From: a virus
IMG/VR virus record: IMGVR_UViG_3300005466_000060
Location: 1-27,333 of that record
DNA length: 27,333 nt
Reading direction: 5' to 3' (one strand)
The position numbers were made by a program, and so were the translations under genes. How positions within the stretch are numbered: position 1 is the stretch's first letter; each line of letters starts with the position of its first letter. The notes under the pieces are model-generated. The model was not told the origin of the DNA, made no database searches, and worked only from the letters and a program-made list of their open reading frames with translations. Shown here piece after piece: positions 8,099 to 26,041 of the stretch.

Positions 8099-8368
8099 TT
8101 AGTTCGAATATATTCCCCAGATCTCGATCACGGCTTTCATAGGACTGGCATTCCATGGGCAGATATATTGATGTGTCTCCGCATGAATAACCCGGTTGAT
8201 CTGCCGCATATTAAGAATTGGAACTGGATCGTTTAACAGGTCGTTAATAGTTATTTCCGATTCTGAATACGGGGGAAGCGCTTTGTCTCCGGTTGCGATG
8301 AACTGCATCCTCTTCGTCTCTCCCATCATGCGGGCCACTAGCGCGATAAATTCGGTTTCGTTTTTCAT
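8099..8368 (-). CDS. Hypothetical protein, 89 aa
   Basis: Soluble, mixed secondary structure, no motif recognised. The start overlaps the methyltransferase stop by ATGA, so it is translationally coupled to it. Confidence 0.6.
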   Translation of the reverse strand: MKNETEFIALVARMMGETKRMQFIATGDKALPPYSESEITINDLLNDPVPILNMRQINRVIHAETHQYICPWNASPMKAVIEIWGIYSN

Positions 8369-9216
8369 AGTGTTATTGCTTCGATTGCCTTGAAGATTTG
8401 GAACGCAACTTGCGGGACGATGGCGTTTCCTGCGGCGTGAATGGAAGATCGCACCAGTCCGGAGGGTATCCCATCATTTCCAATACGTATCGGTGACTGA
8501 GTAGGGAATCGTGCCCATGTGCCAATTTCACAGATTTCGTTATTGACTCCTGATTCATGCCTTGGCTCGCCTTGAATCCGTCGTATGCTTGAGGCGTTGG
8601 CAATAGTCCTTTCTTGGCTAATTCGTTGAGGCTCGGGCCAAATCCATTTCCGTTCTTTTTCATCGACTTTGCCTTTATTCTGCGATTGTTCAGTTTCTCC
8701 ATATCCACGTCTCCGGGCATCATTGCTGTTGGAGTAGGCAATAAACCAACATCTATTACGACGGTGTGGAGCACCGACACCAGCAGCCGGAAGTATAACC
8801 GGTGTGACTTGGTAGCCTTGATTTTCCAAGTCACTGCACACCATTTCGAAGACCAGCCCTTTTGACCAATTAATGATGCCGAAAACATTTTCGCCCACGA
8901 CCCAGCCCGGTTGAATTTCTCGAACGACTCTAAGCATTTCCGGCCAGAGATGCCGGGGGTCATCAGTTCCGAGTCGTTTTCCGGCCGTGCTGAATGGCTG
9001 ACAAGGGAATCCTCCGGTAATAATGTCAACTGCGCCCCTATATTTCGTACCGTCGAATTCTTTAATGTCTCCATATCGTTTGGTTTGCGGGAAATTCTTT
9101 GCTAAAACCTTCTGACAGAATGCGTCCTTCTCAACTTGGAACACGTTGTTCCATCCCATCCATTGAGCGGCCAAGTCGAACCCACCTATACCAGAAAATA
9201 AGCTAGCGTGATTCAT
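8365..9216 (-). CDS. dcm-like: DNA (cytosine-5-)-methyltransferase (283 aa)
   Basis: All key C5-methyltransferase motifs are present: motif I FSGIGGF (7-13) for SAM binding, motif IV GGFPCQPFS with catalytic Cys72, motif VI ENV (109-111), motif VIII as HRRNR (151-155), and motif X GNAIVPQVAFQIF near 266-278. The target recognition part between motifs VIII and IX is short, about 80 residues. It should methylate cytosine in phage DNA, most likely to block host restriction, and no cognate endonuclease is visible. From residue 48 onward nearly the whole gene is also open in a second frame on the same strand (see 8373-9074). Coupled by ATGA to both neighbours. Confidence 0.95.
   Translation of the reverse strand: MNHASLFSGIGGFDLAAQWMGWNNVFQVEKDAFCQKVLAKNFPQTKRYGDIKEFDGTKYRGAVDIITGGFPCQPFSTAGKRLGTDDPRHLWPEMLRVVREIQPGWVVGENVFGIINWSKGLVFEMVCSDLENQGYQVTPVILPAAGVGAPHRRNRCWFIAYSNSNDARRRGYGETEQSQNKGKVDEKERKWIWPEPQRISQERTIANASSIRRIQGEPRHESGVNNEICEIGTWARFPTQSPIRIGNDGIPSGLVRSSIHAAGNAIVPQVAFQIFKAIEAITL
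8373..9074 (-). CDS. Overprinted ORF inside the C5-methyltransferase gene (233 aa)
   Basis: This frame is shifted +1 from the methyltransferase and stays open from an ATG at 9074 for 233 codons, covering about 82 percent of the enzyme gene. It does not read like a random shadow frame. It has SGRKCLESFEKF (43-54), GSWAKMFSASL (58-68), a WSS..C.VTWKIKATKS block (74-90) and HRLYFRL (91-97), two GLLPTP motifs (110-115 and 156-161), and a terminal MMGYPPDWCDLPF (200-212). From memory, proteins with these motifs occur widely in phages and metagenomes associated with C5-methyltransferases, but I cannot search. Function unknown; it could assist or regulate methylation. Confidence 0.55.
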   Translation of the reverse strand: METLKNSTVRNIGAQLTLLPEDSLVSHSARPENDSELMTPGISGRKCLESFEKFNRAGSWAKMFSASLIGQKGWSSKWCAVTWKIKATKSHRLYFRLLVSVLHTVVIDVGLLPTPTAMMPGDVDMEKLNNRRIKAKSMKKNGNGFGPSLNELAKKGLLPTPQAYDGFKASQGMNQESITKSVKLAHGHDSLLSHRYVLEMMGYPPDWCDLPFTPQETPSSRKLRSKSSRQSKQ

Positions 9217-13187: not shown

Positions 13188-13546
13188 TGTGGTATCAGGG
13201 TTGGTGTTTCGTAAATATTACCGATCACGCGAATGTTTGTATCCCACCCGCCGATCGCGCCAGTGGCGAATACTTTAACCACGCGAGTCAAATTGTATCG
13301 AGCTGGATAACCTTTTGATGCGTCTGGCTCAAGATCGTAGCGTATTATATCGCCCTCCCATATCTGCTTGCCAGCCACGTCCTTCCAATCGATCATTTGC
13401 ATGATCTCCCAGTCAACCGACGTGTAGCTTTTCATCTTCTCGTGGAACTGGCCGACCACACCGTCGAAGCGAACAACATACGTATGCTCTTTCGGGTAGT
13501 GCATTTGCTTGCCATCCCATGCGCGAAACCTAAGTTCTCTTTTCAT
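13184..13546 (-). CDS. YopX family protein (120 aa)
   Basis: The N-terminus KRELRFRAWDGKQMHYP, the middle (LMQYTG-like position here MQMIDWKDVAGKQIWEGDII) and the end (VIGNIYETPTLI) are the hallmarks of the YopX family, common in phages and prophages of Firmicutes and Bacteroidota. The molecular role is not known. I chose the ATG at 13546, which overlaps the exonuclease stop by ATGA, rather than an upstream start in that gene. Confidence 0.85.
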   Translation of the reverse strand: MKRELRFRAWDGKQMHYPKEHTYVVRFDGVVGQFHEKMKSYTSVDWEIMQMIDWKDVAGKQIWEGDIIRYDLEPDASKGYPARYNLTRVVKVFATGAIGGWDTNIRVIGNIYETPTLIPQ

Positions 13547-14235
13547 GATAGTGCGTTTAAGAATTCCCGGCAATCTTTCACGCGCTGGTAGACCTTGCCG
13601 ATGATCTCCGGTGACGCCTTGAATTCCATCCCGATGTGGCGTTTCTCATTCGGAATATCATTATAAAGACTGATTCTATCAATCTCTGCGCATGCCTCTC
13701 CATATGCCTGAGTGTTACTATCATCAAGCCCGAGTCCGAGATCATACATCAATTTACGTTTACGGCTATCTATAAGCGGATCAGGCGTATCGATAAGAAC
13801 ATAGTCCACACTTGCCAGGTCACGCCCAGTCAGATCCATATACCCACGAACCTGGTATTCATAGGACTTGTTAATCGGCTTATAGAGTACCATATAAAAT
13901 GTGTATATATCCCAGGAAGATTTTATGTCTCGTACTCTTTCACTGGTTATAATGTCAGGAGTACCGATAATGAAATCGTTTTCAAACGTCTGTTGGTTCT
14001 TGACAAAGAACTGCTTTTTGAGGCGGGAGAGTAGAGTTATGCCGCTCTCCTCTACCATCAAACCCTTCTGTATATACCGGTTCTCTATCTCCTGCTTTCG
14101 TCCGTACGTCTCATCAATCCAGCATTCGAGAAGGTGTTTTTTGCACGTCTCGCCCAGGCCGGTGCCACTCCGGGGATCGGTCATTATGTCGCCCAGGGAC
14201 GAACAATGAAATTTGTAGTCGTCGAATTTCCCCAT
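13543..14235 (-). CDS. YqaJ-type PD-(D/E)XK exonuclease, recombination partner of RecT (230 aa)
   Basis: The catalytic core of the lambda-exonuclease/YqaJ superfamily is visible: a Glu pair near 62-63 (GLMVEESG), IIGTPDII with Asp94, and VRDIKSS with Asp103 and Lys105, followed by a helical part with YEYQVRGYMDL (about 125-135), the Gln-containing motif. It should chew 5' ends of double-stranded DNA to give 3' single strands for RecT. It starts within one base of the recT stop (TAATG), confirming the RecE/RecT-like module. Confidence 0.85.
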   Translation of the reverse strand: MGKFDDYKFHCSSLGDIMTDPRSGTGLGETCKKHLLECWIDETYGRKQEIENRYIQKGLMVEESGITLLSRLKKQFFVKNQQTFENDFIIGTPDIITSERVRDIKSSWDIYTFYMVLYKPINKSYEYQVRGYMDLTGRDLASVDYVLIDTPDPLIDSRKRKLMYDLGLGLDDSNTQAYGEACAEIDRISLYNDIPNEKRHIGMEFKASPEIIGKVYQRVKDCREFLNALS

Positions 14236-15113
14236 TACTTTTTGGCTTTGAGTTCATCCATCTTTACTGTGTATAGGTCAATCTGCGAGTCCTTAACGAA
14301 AGGCTCCAGCGCCTTAAGTTCATCCATAGTCTTAGCATCTTGGATCATTAGTATCACGCGCTCAGACTCGTGGTCGATCTGGTCGGGCTCGTTATCGACA
14401 TAAGTAATATCGGTGGCGTCTTCGTTGTTGACAACCGATTGATCGATGGTAACCGCGCGCTGCATCTCGACTGAAAGAGGACCCCACTTCGAAAGATTTG
14501 CCTTGATTACCGTCTTGATGGCCATCGCGTCAAAGTCGTCTTTCCATAACCCAAATCCTTTCTTATAGGTCTGGCTGTATTTAAGCCCGTGGGCCTTGAG
14601 TTGATCCACCGTAGAATAAAGTGTCTTTTGAAAGCCATTCAGGAGTTCGAAATACGACGCATATCCAATGATCTTCTCAGACGTTTTCTTAGTGAAATCG
14701 AAAGTGAAGCCGGTGAGCGGATTTTCTTCCACGAGCTGGCCTTCATAGATCGGCGTGGCCGATAGTGTGCGGTACATGCCAGACCGCTGCGCAAGCTGAA
14801 TGAACCCCTTATAGCCCATCTGAAATTGGGCCACCTGCTTATATGTTCCGTCCTTCTGACGTTGATTGTAGGGCACAATGTAGGCAAACCCAAGGTTGTT
14901 ATTCAGCGGCAGGTCCAGCGTCGCGGCTACTGCGGCAGAATGATAGATGCTGTGTGGATCGGCGTTGGCCAACAGCGCGTTCGACGCGACGATCTGAAGC
15001 ACCGACGTGATGAATTGCGGTGCCCTCTTGCCCAGCATTTCCTGGAATTTGTTCCGGACCTCATCGCGAGCGAAAAGGTTCTTTGTTGTAAGTTGTTGTG
15101 TTGGTTCGCTCAT
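14235..15113 (-). CDS. recT: RecT-family single-strand annealing protein (292 aa)
   Basis: Length and sequence match phage RecT: an N-terminal MLGKRAPQFITSVLQIV, then TLDLPLNNNLGFAYIVPYN, FQMGYKGFIQLAQRSGMYRT, and WKDDFDAMAIKTVIKANLSKWG. It binds ssDNA produced by the adjacent exonuclease and anneals complementary strands, serving phage recombination and repair. The C-terminal 50 residues are acidic and helical as in other RecTs. It is the best-conserved gene of the second leftward operon. The 43 nt upstream are AT-rich but no clear promoter is seen. Confidence 0.95.
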   Translation of the reverse strand: MSEPTQQLTTKNLFARDEVRNKFQEMLGKRAPQFITSVLQIVASNALLANADPHSIYHSAAVAATLDLPLNNNLGFAYIVPYNQRQKDGTYKQVAQFQMGYKGFIQLAQRSGMYRTLSATPIYEGQLVEENPLTGFTFDFTKKTSEKIIGYASYFELLNGFQKTLYSTVDQLKAHGLKYSQTYKKGFGLWKDDFDAMAIKTVIKANLSKWGPLSVEMQRAVTIDQSVVNNEDATDITYVDNEPDQIDHESERVILMIQDAKTMDELKALEPFVKDSQIDLYTVKMDELKAKK

Positions 15114-19772: not shown

Positions 19773-20303
19773 ATGAAAACTAAATTCTATCCGATTATTG
19801 GCTATGAAGACTTATATAGTATATCAAAAAAAGGTGATATCCTAGCTCATTCTTGGGAGGTCGTAAGGCCCACAAAAGGTTCTTTTTTAAAAAGGGAGAG
19901 ATTATTGACTCAATTCTTAAACCATAAAGGTTATCCATGCATAAGCCTTAGACTTAATGGGAAGAATAAAACATACTCCATTCATAGGTTACTCGCAATT
20001 CAATTTATACCAAATATTCACGGCAAGCCATCAGTAAACCATAAGAATGGGATCAAGACTGATAATCGTGTGAATAACCTTGAGTGGTGTACCGCGAAAG
20101 AGAATAGCGAACATGCTTTACTTAATGGCCTTTATAAAAGTGAAAAACCTATAGCATTGGTAAGTAATAACGGTAATGTAATCAAGAAATTCACATCTAT
20201 ACACTCGGCCTCCAGGCATACAGGTTACTCTGTTAGTGGGGTTCACCAGATCGCAAGCGGCATTACAAAAAATCCAGCCTCATTAATTTTCATATACTTA
20301 TGA
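19773..20303 (+). CDS. HNH homing endonuclease with NUMOD4/NUMOD1 domains (176 aa)
   Basis: Domain order: NUMOD4-like start (YPIIGYEDLYSISKKGDI, residues 6-23), HNH core (SIHRLLAIQFIP at 69-80, VNHKNG at 88-93, NNLEWCT at 101-107, so His71, His90 and Asn101 are candidates), then a NUMOD1-like DNA-binding end (KKFTSIHSASRHTGYSVSGV, about 138-157). Such free-standing nucleases cut cognate DNA lacking them and spread by homing. The gene is visibly AT-rich against its neighbours, has a 11-nt gap upstream and an ATGA overlap downstream, as expected for a recent insertion into an operon. Confidence 0.9.
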   Translation: MKTKFYPIIGYEDLYSISKKGDILAHSWEVVRPTKGSFLKRERLLTQFLNHKGYPCISLRLNGKNKTYSIHRLLAIQFIPNIHGKPSVNHKNGIKTDNRVNNLEWCTAKENSEHALLNGLYKSEKPIALVSNNGNVIKKFTSIHSASRHTGYSVSGVHQIASGITKNPASLIFIYL

Positions 20304-21016
20304 TCACCATATATACCATCGCATATAACGAGGAGATCATGCTACCTTACTTCGTTGCCCACTACCGCGAGCTATTCCCTGGTTGCCGCATCGTCGTGTA
20401 CAACAACATGAGCGACGATAACACGAAGAGCGTCGCGCTGGCACTCGGATGCGAGGTGATCGACTACGACACAGGTGGCAAGCTTTCCGACGCCAAATAC
20501 TTGGATATAAAAAACAATGCTTGGAAGCGCGCTGAAACGGACTGGGTATTAATCGTTGACATGGATGAGCACTGCCTTATTACCGAATCTGATCTTTTGA
20601 GAGAGTCTGCCGCCGGCACGAATATCCTGTGGTTCGAAGGTTGGAACATGGTGGCCATGAGACCTACGTTAGACGTTAAAACGATAGAATACGGCGTCCG
20701 TGCTCCTTCTTACGACAAGTCCTATTGTTTCAATCGGATCGAGATAGCGGAAATAATGTATAATCCAGGATGCCATACGGCGAACCCGATTACTGTCATG
20801 GGTGCATACCCGATAAAGTATAGCGAGAACGCGTATAAAGTCTTGCACTATAAGTACCTTAACGCTGATTATATGGTGAAGCGCCATGCCTTATTTGCCT
20901 CCAGGCTAAGTGACGACAACCGAAAGAAAGGATATGGTGGTCACTACCTTTACCCGGCATCAAAGATCAAAAGAGAATTTCAGGAGGCACAACGTAACGC
21001 GATAAAAGTAATATGA
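20300..21016 (+). CDS. GT-A type glycosyltransferase (family 2-like), 238 aa
   Basis: N-terminus ITIYTIAYNEEIMLPYFVAH and IVVYNNMSDDNTKSVA are the nucleotide-sugar binding elements of family-2-like transferases. VDMDE (86-90) is the DxD motif that binds the metal and sugar nucleotide. It ends with a basic helical tail. It should move a sugar from a nucleotide donor to an unknown acceptor: virion protein, phage DNA base or host surface glycan. ATGA coupling on both sides. Confidence 0.8.
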   Translation: MITIYTIAYNEEIMLPYFVAHYRELFPGCRIVVYNNMSDDNTKSVALALGCEVIDYDTGGKLSDAKYLDIKNNAWKRAETDWVLIVDMDEHCLITESDLLRESAAGTNILWFEGWNMVAMRPTLDVKTIEYGVRAPSYDKSYCFNRIEIAEIMYNPGCHTANPITVMGAYPIKYSENAYKVLHYKYLNADYMVKRHALFASRLSDDNRKKGYGGHYLYPASKIKREFQEAQRNAIKVI

Positions 21017-24210: not shown

Positions 24211-24672
24211 ATGGCAGCACCCGAAGGGAACCAGTTTTGGAGGCTCAGAACCAAGCACGGCCGCGATAAACTCTTCGCAGATCCAGAGCTATTATGGACC
24301 GAGTCCCAGGCTTATTTCGAGGCAACGGACAAAAGAAAATGGTGGAAGACTGAATTCAACGGAAAGGACGCAATAGAATGCCATGTCCCCACCGAAACAC
24401 CATATACCCTCACCGGCCTATTTGTTTACCTCGATATCAGCAAACAAACGTGGTCACAGTATAGGGATCGACAAGATTTTAGTGACGTCATTACGCGCAT
24501 AGAGCAGATTATCTACACTCAAAAGATCGAAGGTGCATCTACCGGCGCATTCAACGCAAACATCGTTGCGCGAGAACTGGGCCTTACCGACAAGAAAGAA
24601 CTCGACCACAAAGGCATTCCTGAAACCAACGTCACGTACAAAGTCACGCCCGAGGTGACGCCTGATGAATGA
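24211..24672 (+). CDS. terS: Terminase small subunit / DNA-packaging protein (gp3-like), 153 aa
   Basis: The sequence GNQFWRLRTKHGRDKLF, then TLTGLFVYLDISKQTWSQYR (a helix-turn-helix in the middle) and VITRIEQIIYTQKIEGASTGAFNANIVARELGL is the pattern of DNA-packaging gp3-like small terminases of Bacteroidota phages. It recognises the packaging site and loads the large subunit. I prefer the ATG at 24211 because family members usually begin at this point; a GTG at 24181 would add ten residues. It overlaps the large subunit by 8 nt. Confidence 0.85.
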   Translation: MAAPEGNQFWRLRTKHGRDKLFADPELLWTESQAYFEATDKRKWWKTEFNGKDAIECHVPTETPYTLTGLFVYLDISKQTWSQYRDRQDFSDVITRIEQIIYTQKIEGASTGAFNANIVARELGLTDKKELDHKGIPETNVTYKVTPEVTPDE

Positions 24673-26041
24673 GGTAGAAGTAAAGTGTACCATAGTCTTC
24701 AAGTGGAATGACGACGCCATACACGCACGCAACGAAGACGGCACAAGGAAATACCGGTACATTATAAATGAGGGGTCCAGCAGGTCCAGCAAGACCAGAT
24801 CCTTAATACAGGCTATTCACAAGTATTGCCAGCAGCATGCAGGGAAACGTTGCTCGGTTTGGAGAGCCACCAAGACAGATTGCTCGGCCACGGTGGGCGA
24901 CGATGTTCATAAGATTTTCCCAACGTTGCCGCTCGCTAGCACGATAAGGTATAACGCGACGGAGGACTACTACACATTCCACAATGGATCTGAGTTTGAG
25001 ATAAACGGCACAGACAACGCGGAGAAAGTCCATGGATACAACGGACACGTTATATGGTTGAATGAACCTTATTCTATATCCAGGGCTACATTCGATCAAC
25101 TCGATATGAGGGCCGAAGATTTCGTTGTGATAGACTGGAACCCTAAGCAGGCGCACTGGATAGACGACTTGAAGAAAGATCCTCGCACTATAATTATAAA
25201 GTCGACTTTCCGCAATAATCCATATTGCCCCGCAGAGCAAAAGAGAAAGATTCTGAGCTATCAGCCTGTGAAGATGTGCGACGTTGTGTTGTCGAAAATA
25301 ATGATAGAGTCTGAGGCTAAGGCATACGACCTTGTTGTAAACCCTATGAATCTTTCTGAGAAACAAATCAAAGAACTATCCCGATGCAAAGAGAATGAGC
25401 GAAAAGCATCGGCCAATGCGTTTAACTGGGCGGTATATGGCCTTGGCGAGAAGTCTGAGAAGCCCAACCGAATATTCTTCTGGGAGAAGATCAAAGATGA
25501 CGATTACCACAAGCTGGGCGCTCAACGATGGTATGGTATTGACTGGGGAGTCGTAGATCCTTTCGGCATCCTGGAGGCTAAGTATTACGATGGTGCCTTG
25601 TATTTCCATCAAAAGAACTACAAGTCGGAGAACGAGATAAAGGAAGGAATGTCAGTCATGCAGATTGAGGAGATAAACAAAGCGGAGGAAGGCCTAGTGA
25701 AGTGGCTCCTTCGCGAATTGAACATACCGAAGGATTGCTACCTGATCTGCGACAACAACCGGCCCATGAAGATCTTGGCGCTGCACGATATCGGTTACGA
25801 GTTCTCGCTCCCAGCACCGAAGCCACCCGGGTCAATAATCGACGGTATCGATATCCTGCGGGACATGAAGTGCTACTACACTGAAAACTCTTTGAACCTG
25901 GAGTATGAGCAGGAGAATTACGAACGCCAGGTTGATCGTTATGGTATCGTAATGGATGAGCCTGTCGACAAAGACAATCACCTTATGGACCCAGCGCGTT
26001 ACATAGCGCTATACCTAAAGTTGATCGGGATATTAAAATAG
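24665..26041 (+). CDS. terL: Terminase large subunit (PBSX-type ATPase/nuclease), 458 aa
   Basis: Walker A is GSSRSSKT (37-44). Walker B is VIWLNEP (129-135) with Glu134 as the catalytic carboxylate and Asn133 in place of the usual Asp. The C-terminal nuclease has GIDWGVVDP (near 290), ICDNN and a final DNHLMDPARYIALYL with the third acidic residue. It powers DNA translocation into the prohead and cuts concatemers. Length is normal for the family. The portal gene follows directly. Confidence 0.95.
   Translation: MNEVEVKCTIVFKWNDDAIHARNEDGTRKYRYIINEGSSRSSKTRSLIQAIHKYCQQHAGKRCSVWRATKTDCSATVGDDVHKIFPTLPLASTIRYNATEDYYTFHNGSEFEINGTDNAEKVHGYNGHVIWLNEPYSISRATFDQLDMRAEDFVVIDWNPKQAHWIDDLKKDPRTIIIKSTFRNNPYCPAEQKRKILSYQPVKMCDVVLSKIMIESEAKAYDLVVNPMNLSEKQIKELSRCKENERKASANAFNWAVYGLGEKSEKPNRIFFWEKIKDDDYHKLGAQRWYGIDWGVVDPFGILEAKYYDGALYFHQKNYKSENEIKEGMSVMQIEEINKAEEGLVKWLLRELNIPKDCYLICDNNRPMKILALHDIGYEFSLPAPKPPGSIIDGIDILRDMKCYYTENSLNLEYEQENYERQVDRYGIVMDEPVDKDNHLMDPARYIALYLKLIGILK

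Follow-up and report, generated by a model that had tools for sequence, protein, structure and literature searches.

An overprinted frame within a phage C5-methyltransferase gene that most likely encodes its DNA-recognition subunit

The C5-methyltransferase gene of this phage overlaps a second conserved and selected reading frame, and the locus is best interpreted as encoding a two-subunit DNA cytosine-5 methyltransferase, comprising a catalytic alpha subunit and a target-recognising beta subunit. The window analysed was the whole 27,333-nucleotide stretch of IMG/VR record IMGVR_UViG_3300005466_000060. It is a phage sequence, carrying an exonuclease and RecT pair and a terminase large subunit (13543-15113 (-) and 24665-26041 (+)), as well as an HNH endonuclease (19773-20303), a family 2 glycosyltransferase (20300-21016) and a beta-helix protein (947-2362). 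The methyltransferase gene (ORF A) and the nested frame (ORF B, +1 relative to A and covering 82% of it) were resolved into the following parts, in which the roles of beta and of its cassettes are inferred:

8365-9216, minus strand: alpha, C5-methyltransferase catalytic subunit (ORF A, 283 aa), motifs I-VIII and X
8373-9074, minus strand: beta, overprinted target-recognition subunit (ORF B, 233 aa), +1 frame
9181-9201, minus strand: alpha motif I, LFSGIGG (SAM binding)
8989-9015, minus strand: alpha motif IV, GGFPCQPFS (catalytic Cys), overlapping beta
8884-8895, minus strand: alpha motif VI, GENV
8734-8763, minus strand: alpha motif VIII, RRNRCWFIAY
8431-8700, minus strand: alpha linker (residues 173-262), predicted disordered, passenger to the beta cassettes and motif IX
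8410-8430, minus strand: alpha motif X, GNAIVPQ
8772-8951, minus strand: beta N-terminal domain (B residues 42-101), overprinted on alpha motifs IV-VIII
8604-8741, minus strand: beta recognition cassette 1 (LPTPTAMM...KKGL)
8502-8603, minus strand: beta recognition cassette 2 (LPTPQAYD...DSL)
8454-8501, minus strand: beta motif IX, LSHRYVLEMMGYPPDW

ORF A was identified as a C5-methyltransferase by matches to PF00145 (E = 4e-51) and phrog_363 (E = 2e-72), and by similarity to M.HhaI in the PDB (E = 4e-33 over residues 2-168). ORF B matched the phage protein family phrog_1008 over most of its length (residues 13-218 of 233, E = 1.7e-20), although it had no Pfam match. The B frame contains two LLPTP repeats, the blocks CLESFEKF...GSWAKMF and WKIKATKS...LYF, and MMGYPPDWCDLPF. 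A sequence-only reading had proposed that such patterns occur in phage proteins and that one stretch of DNA encodes two proteins, probably linked to methylation; the first point was right and the interpretation is supported. An open +1 frame of this length is unlikely by chance; the observed 242-codon stop-free run was reached in 1 of 20,000 synonymous resamplings of A, and in 56 of 20,000 permutations of its own codons.

The overlap was retained in essentially every related locus tested. A profile of B recovered A in the overlapping frame, offset +1, in 99 of 100 sequences, although this set counted the window twice and included some near-duplicates; the exception (locus L017, 1209-1986) had its alpha and beta frames exchanged by an indel at a G run, reflecting either an assembly error or a broken copy. 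A profile of A, blind to B, recovered B in 80 of 80 loci, with many contigs shared with the first set. All 20 loci from bacterial genomes, all of them Bacteroidota, agreed. A second clade of B gave 79 of 80, the exception being a viral contig (L307, 133-1952) with two alpha/beta pairs in tandem, in which each copy is again +1 and the second alpha seems to lack motif I. After removal of duplicates, about 200 loci remained. Named phages with the arrangement include those of Paenibacillus, Lacticaseibacillus, Klebsiella, Escherichia, Acinetobacter, Stenotrophomonas, Streptomyces, Gordonia, Arthrobacter, Rhodococcus and cyanobacteria. Enterobacterial and Komagataeibacter phage alphas (L313, L315, L318 and L319) carry GEQV where motif VI GENV is expected, with a distinct N-terminus. 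phrog_1008 was found in 3 of 395 sampled Bacteroidota genomes, and plasmids gave 4 weak hits; a B-like match was noted within a DNA cytosine methyltransferase gene on Leptospira plasmid p2 (L120, 2299-3114; 28% identity, E = 2e-3). Relatives of the ESSI2 phage gene occur in 66 of 5426 E. coli genomes; on the E. coli EC20 chromosome (L328, 2489-3658) a relative is annotated by PGAP as two incomplete methyltransferase pseudogenes, which may be an alpha/beta overlap misread as broken.

Third-position variation showed that both frames are under selection. The third codon position of A is the second position of B. Third-base entropy at conserved fourfold A codons was 1.69 bits outside B and 1.10 inside (p = 2e-5), and was correlated with B residue conservation (Spearman -0.885). 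In 42 pairs that share no sequence, third-base identity at these codons was 59% before B, 80% and 86% within it, and 55% after it (p = 1e-20 and 3e-28); since the sequences are related, p-values that treat sites or pairs as independent are approximate. Substitutions per site at A positions 1/2/3 were.091/.042/.323 before B,.101/.048/.198 in the N part of the overlap,.341/.238/.285 in the C part and.155/.112/.393 after B. Frame A dominates the N part, while in the C part B is the better conserved frame.

The identity of B was most readily explained by what A lacks. A has motifs I-VIII and X, but no motif IX was found in the alignment. Its AF2 model was confident for most of residues 1-170 and for the motif X helix, and aligned to M.HhaI over 183 residues (Z = 21, rmsd 2.2), but residues 173-262, the stretch over the cassettes and C-terminus of B, were predicted to be disordered (pLDDT mostly under 50). 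A alone is therefore assigned as the catalytic part only. B ends in LSHRYVLEMMGYPPDW (consensus LNPRFVAEMMGFPPxW), in register with canonical motif IX (e.g., LTPRECARLQGFPDNF). The spacing from motif IX to X is 29 residues in single-chain enzymes, as counted on two sequences, and about 22 to 32 codons here. The direct profile match of B to canonical motif IX was weak (E = 0.04), and the link rests on an intermediate block from seven actinobacterial phages. In Gordonia JKSyngboy, Arthrobacter 1191A and Rhodococcus ReT1v-2, motifs IX and X lie in frame A; in phiBT1, Sebastisaurus, Chubster and TaylorSipht, both lie in frame B. These blocks were 43-51% identical to that of JKSyngboy whichever frame they were in; Pfam does not mark them. 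The B profile matched this block at E = 1.2e-6, and the block matched canonical IX-X at E = 9.8e-5; phrog_1008 itself matched the JKSyngboy alpha at residues 247-353 (E = 1.3e-32). The phiBT1 record (L311, 1104-2313) describes gp9.1 as 'may be inactive', yet the missing recognition part, IX and X lie in an unannotated overlapping frame directly downstream.

Between its N-terminal domain and motif IX, B holds one to four modules beginning LPTPTAxD (45, 72, 60 and 12 of 189 loci, respectively); the Arthrobacter phage Chubster (L323, 1414-2940) has a very long beta of over 400 aa with about eight recognition-like cassettes. In the window, cassette 1 was 47% identical to a cassette in an Arachidicoccus locus (L105), and cassette 2 showed 58% identity over 26 aa to locus L072. 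Between loci, 387 module pairs were at least 75% identical; median module identity was 84%, against 53% for the B N-domain and 75% for alpha residues 1-150. Of these pairs, 186 sat at different ordinal positions, and one module occurred after the N-domain or after several other modules, and before either of two other modules or motif IX, in the manner of shuffled target-recognition modules. Variation within modules fell on B codon position 3, and in matching cassettes frame B was 70-93% identical against 32-58% for frame A. So B is the selected frame there, and A is a passenger linker. However, AF2 modelling of B alone was poor (pLDDT 63) with no fold match, and its profile matched no PDB sequence; the recognition-domain assignment therefore rests on position, modularity and motif IX rather than structure, and that cassettes set specificity is by analogy.

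The first in-frame ATG of B lies at a median of A codon 48. SD-like sites preceded 42 of 200 B starts, against 172 of 2988 control ATGs (p = 4e-12); many were AAGGAG or AAGGAA within the D-V-K-E-L of A. The window's own B start has no clear Shine-Dalgarno site, although its relatives are in Bacteroidota, in which initiation may often do without one.

Taken together, these data support with high confidence, though in the absence of expression or activity data, a model in which frame A makes alpha (the catalytic domain, a disordered linker and motif X), while frame B, starting about 48 codons into A, makes beta (an overprinted N-terminal domain, recognition cassettes and motif IX). Beta would be translated separately, dock on alpha and supply the recognition domain and motif IX that alpha lacks, so that the two proteins form one sequence-specific methyltransferase marking phage DNA, probably against host restriction. 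The likely origin is a single-chain MTase gene whose recognition region came to be read in +1, with frame A kept open across it as a linker. A broader reading is only somewhat more likely than not: that this is a widespread class of phage enzymes in which each interchangeable cassette sets a DNA target, phages re-programming methylation by swapping cassettes that must stay open in both frames, while motifs IX and X have moved between frames during evolution.

Other explanations appear unlikely. The DNA order I-VIII, recognition, IX, X is canonical, and IX and X occur in either frame, which could indicate that ribosomes slip +1 after motif VIII to give a single-chain fusion; however, the B frame is also under selection upstream of motif VIII, which a fusion would not need, B has internal start codons with SD-like sites above background, and a fusion would lack X in most phages. 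It is equally doubtful that B is translated but does something else, such as inhibiting a restriction enzyme or regulating alpha, and only resembles motif IX. The function of the B N-domain is unknown and B has no Pfam match, but A lacks IX while B has it, the same IX-X block moves between frames, and the cassettes behave like target-recognition modules. That B is a mechanical shadow of codon choice in A, with no product, is refuted, despite the long +1 frames seen in occasional codon permutations, by near-universal conservation in diverged loci, synonymous suppression and the greater conservation of cassettes in frame B.

Long same-strand overlaps of two selected proteins in dsDNA phages are thought rare, and this one is conserved across phages of Bacteroidota, Firmicutes, Actinobacteria, Proteobacteria and cyanobacteria, where annotation often drops one frame or calls the gene broken. 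Overlaps like that of A and B are common in phages and partly annotated already, making the case less exceptional than the sequence-only reading had claimed; that reading also did not see that B most likely is the recognition domain plus motif IX of the same enzyme. The window proteins match phrog_363 and phrog_1008, and records for Paenibacillus phages Redbud, Diva and Lily annotate the nested frame as an 'internal gene', but these annotations give no mechanism and no link to motif IX, and phrog_1008 is labelled only 'DNA methyltransferase'. What appears to be new, in a literature search that did not cover most subscription journals and found no description of the phage overlap, is the combination of features, its breadth and the migration of IX and X between frames.

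Among known systems, M.EcoHK31I (target YGGCCR) is a two-subunit C5-methyltransferase; its large subunit has motifs I-VIII and X, and its small subunit has motif IX (PMC3404938) and is probably read from an alternative frame inside the large gene (Lee, Kam and Shaw 1995). The present system is interpreted as working like it. The recognition domain of M.EcoHK31I is predicted in the large subunit (PMC3404938); here the cassettes lie in frame B and A is disordered there, so the locus is not assigned to that type. The multispecific C5-methyltransferases of Bacillus subtilis phages SPR and phi3T (Guenthert 1986; Trautner 1996; listed in PMC4190342 and PMC12707154) probably carry several exchangeable recognition modules in tandem between motifs VIII and IX. 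The cassettes described here likewise lie in tandem between motifs VIII and IX and are shared between enzymes; however, those enzymes are probably single chains in one frame, while here the modules sit in the overprinted frame, apart from the catalytic motifs. In M.AquI (CYCGRG), part of the recognition region plus IX and X is on a second subunit (PMC3404938), as in phiBT1, Sebastisaurus, Chubster and TaylorSipht; but its variable region is split between the two subunits (PMC3404938), its genes apparently lack a long nested overlap, and most loci described here keep X on alpha.
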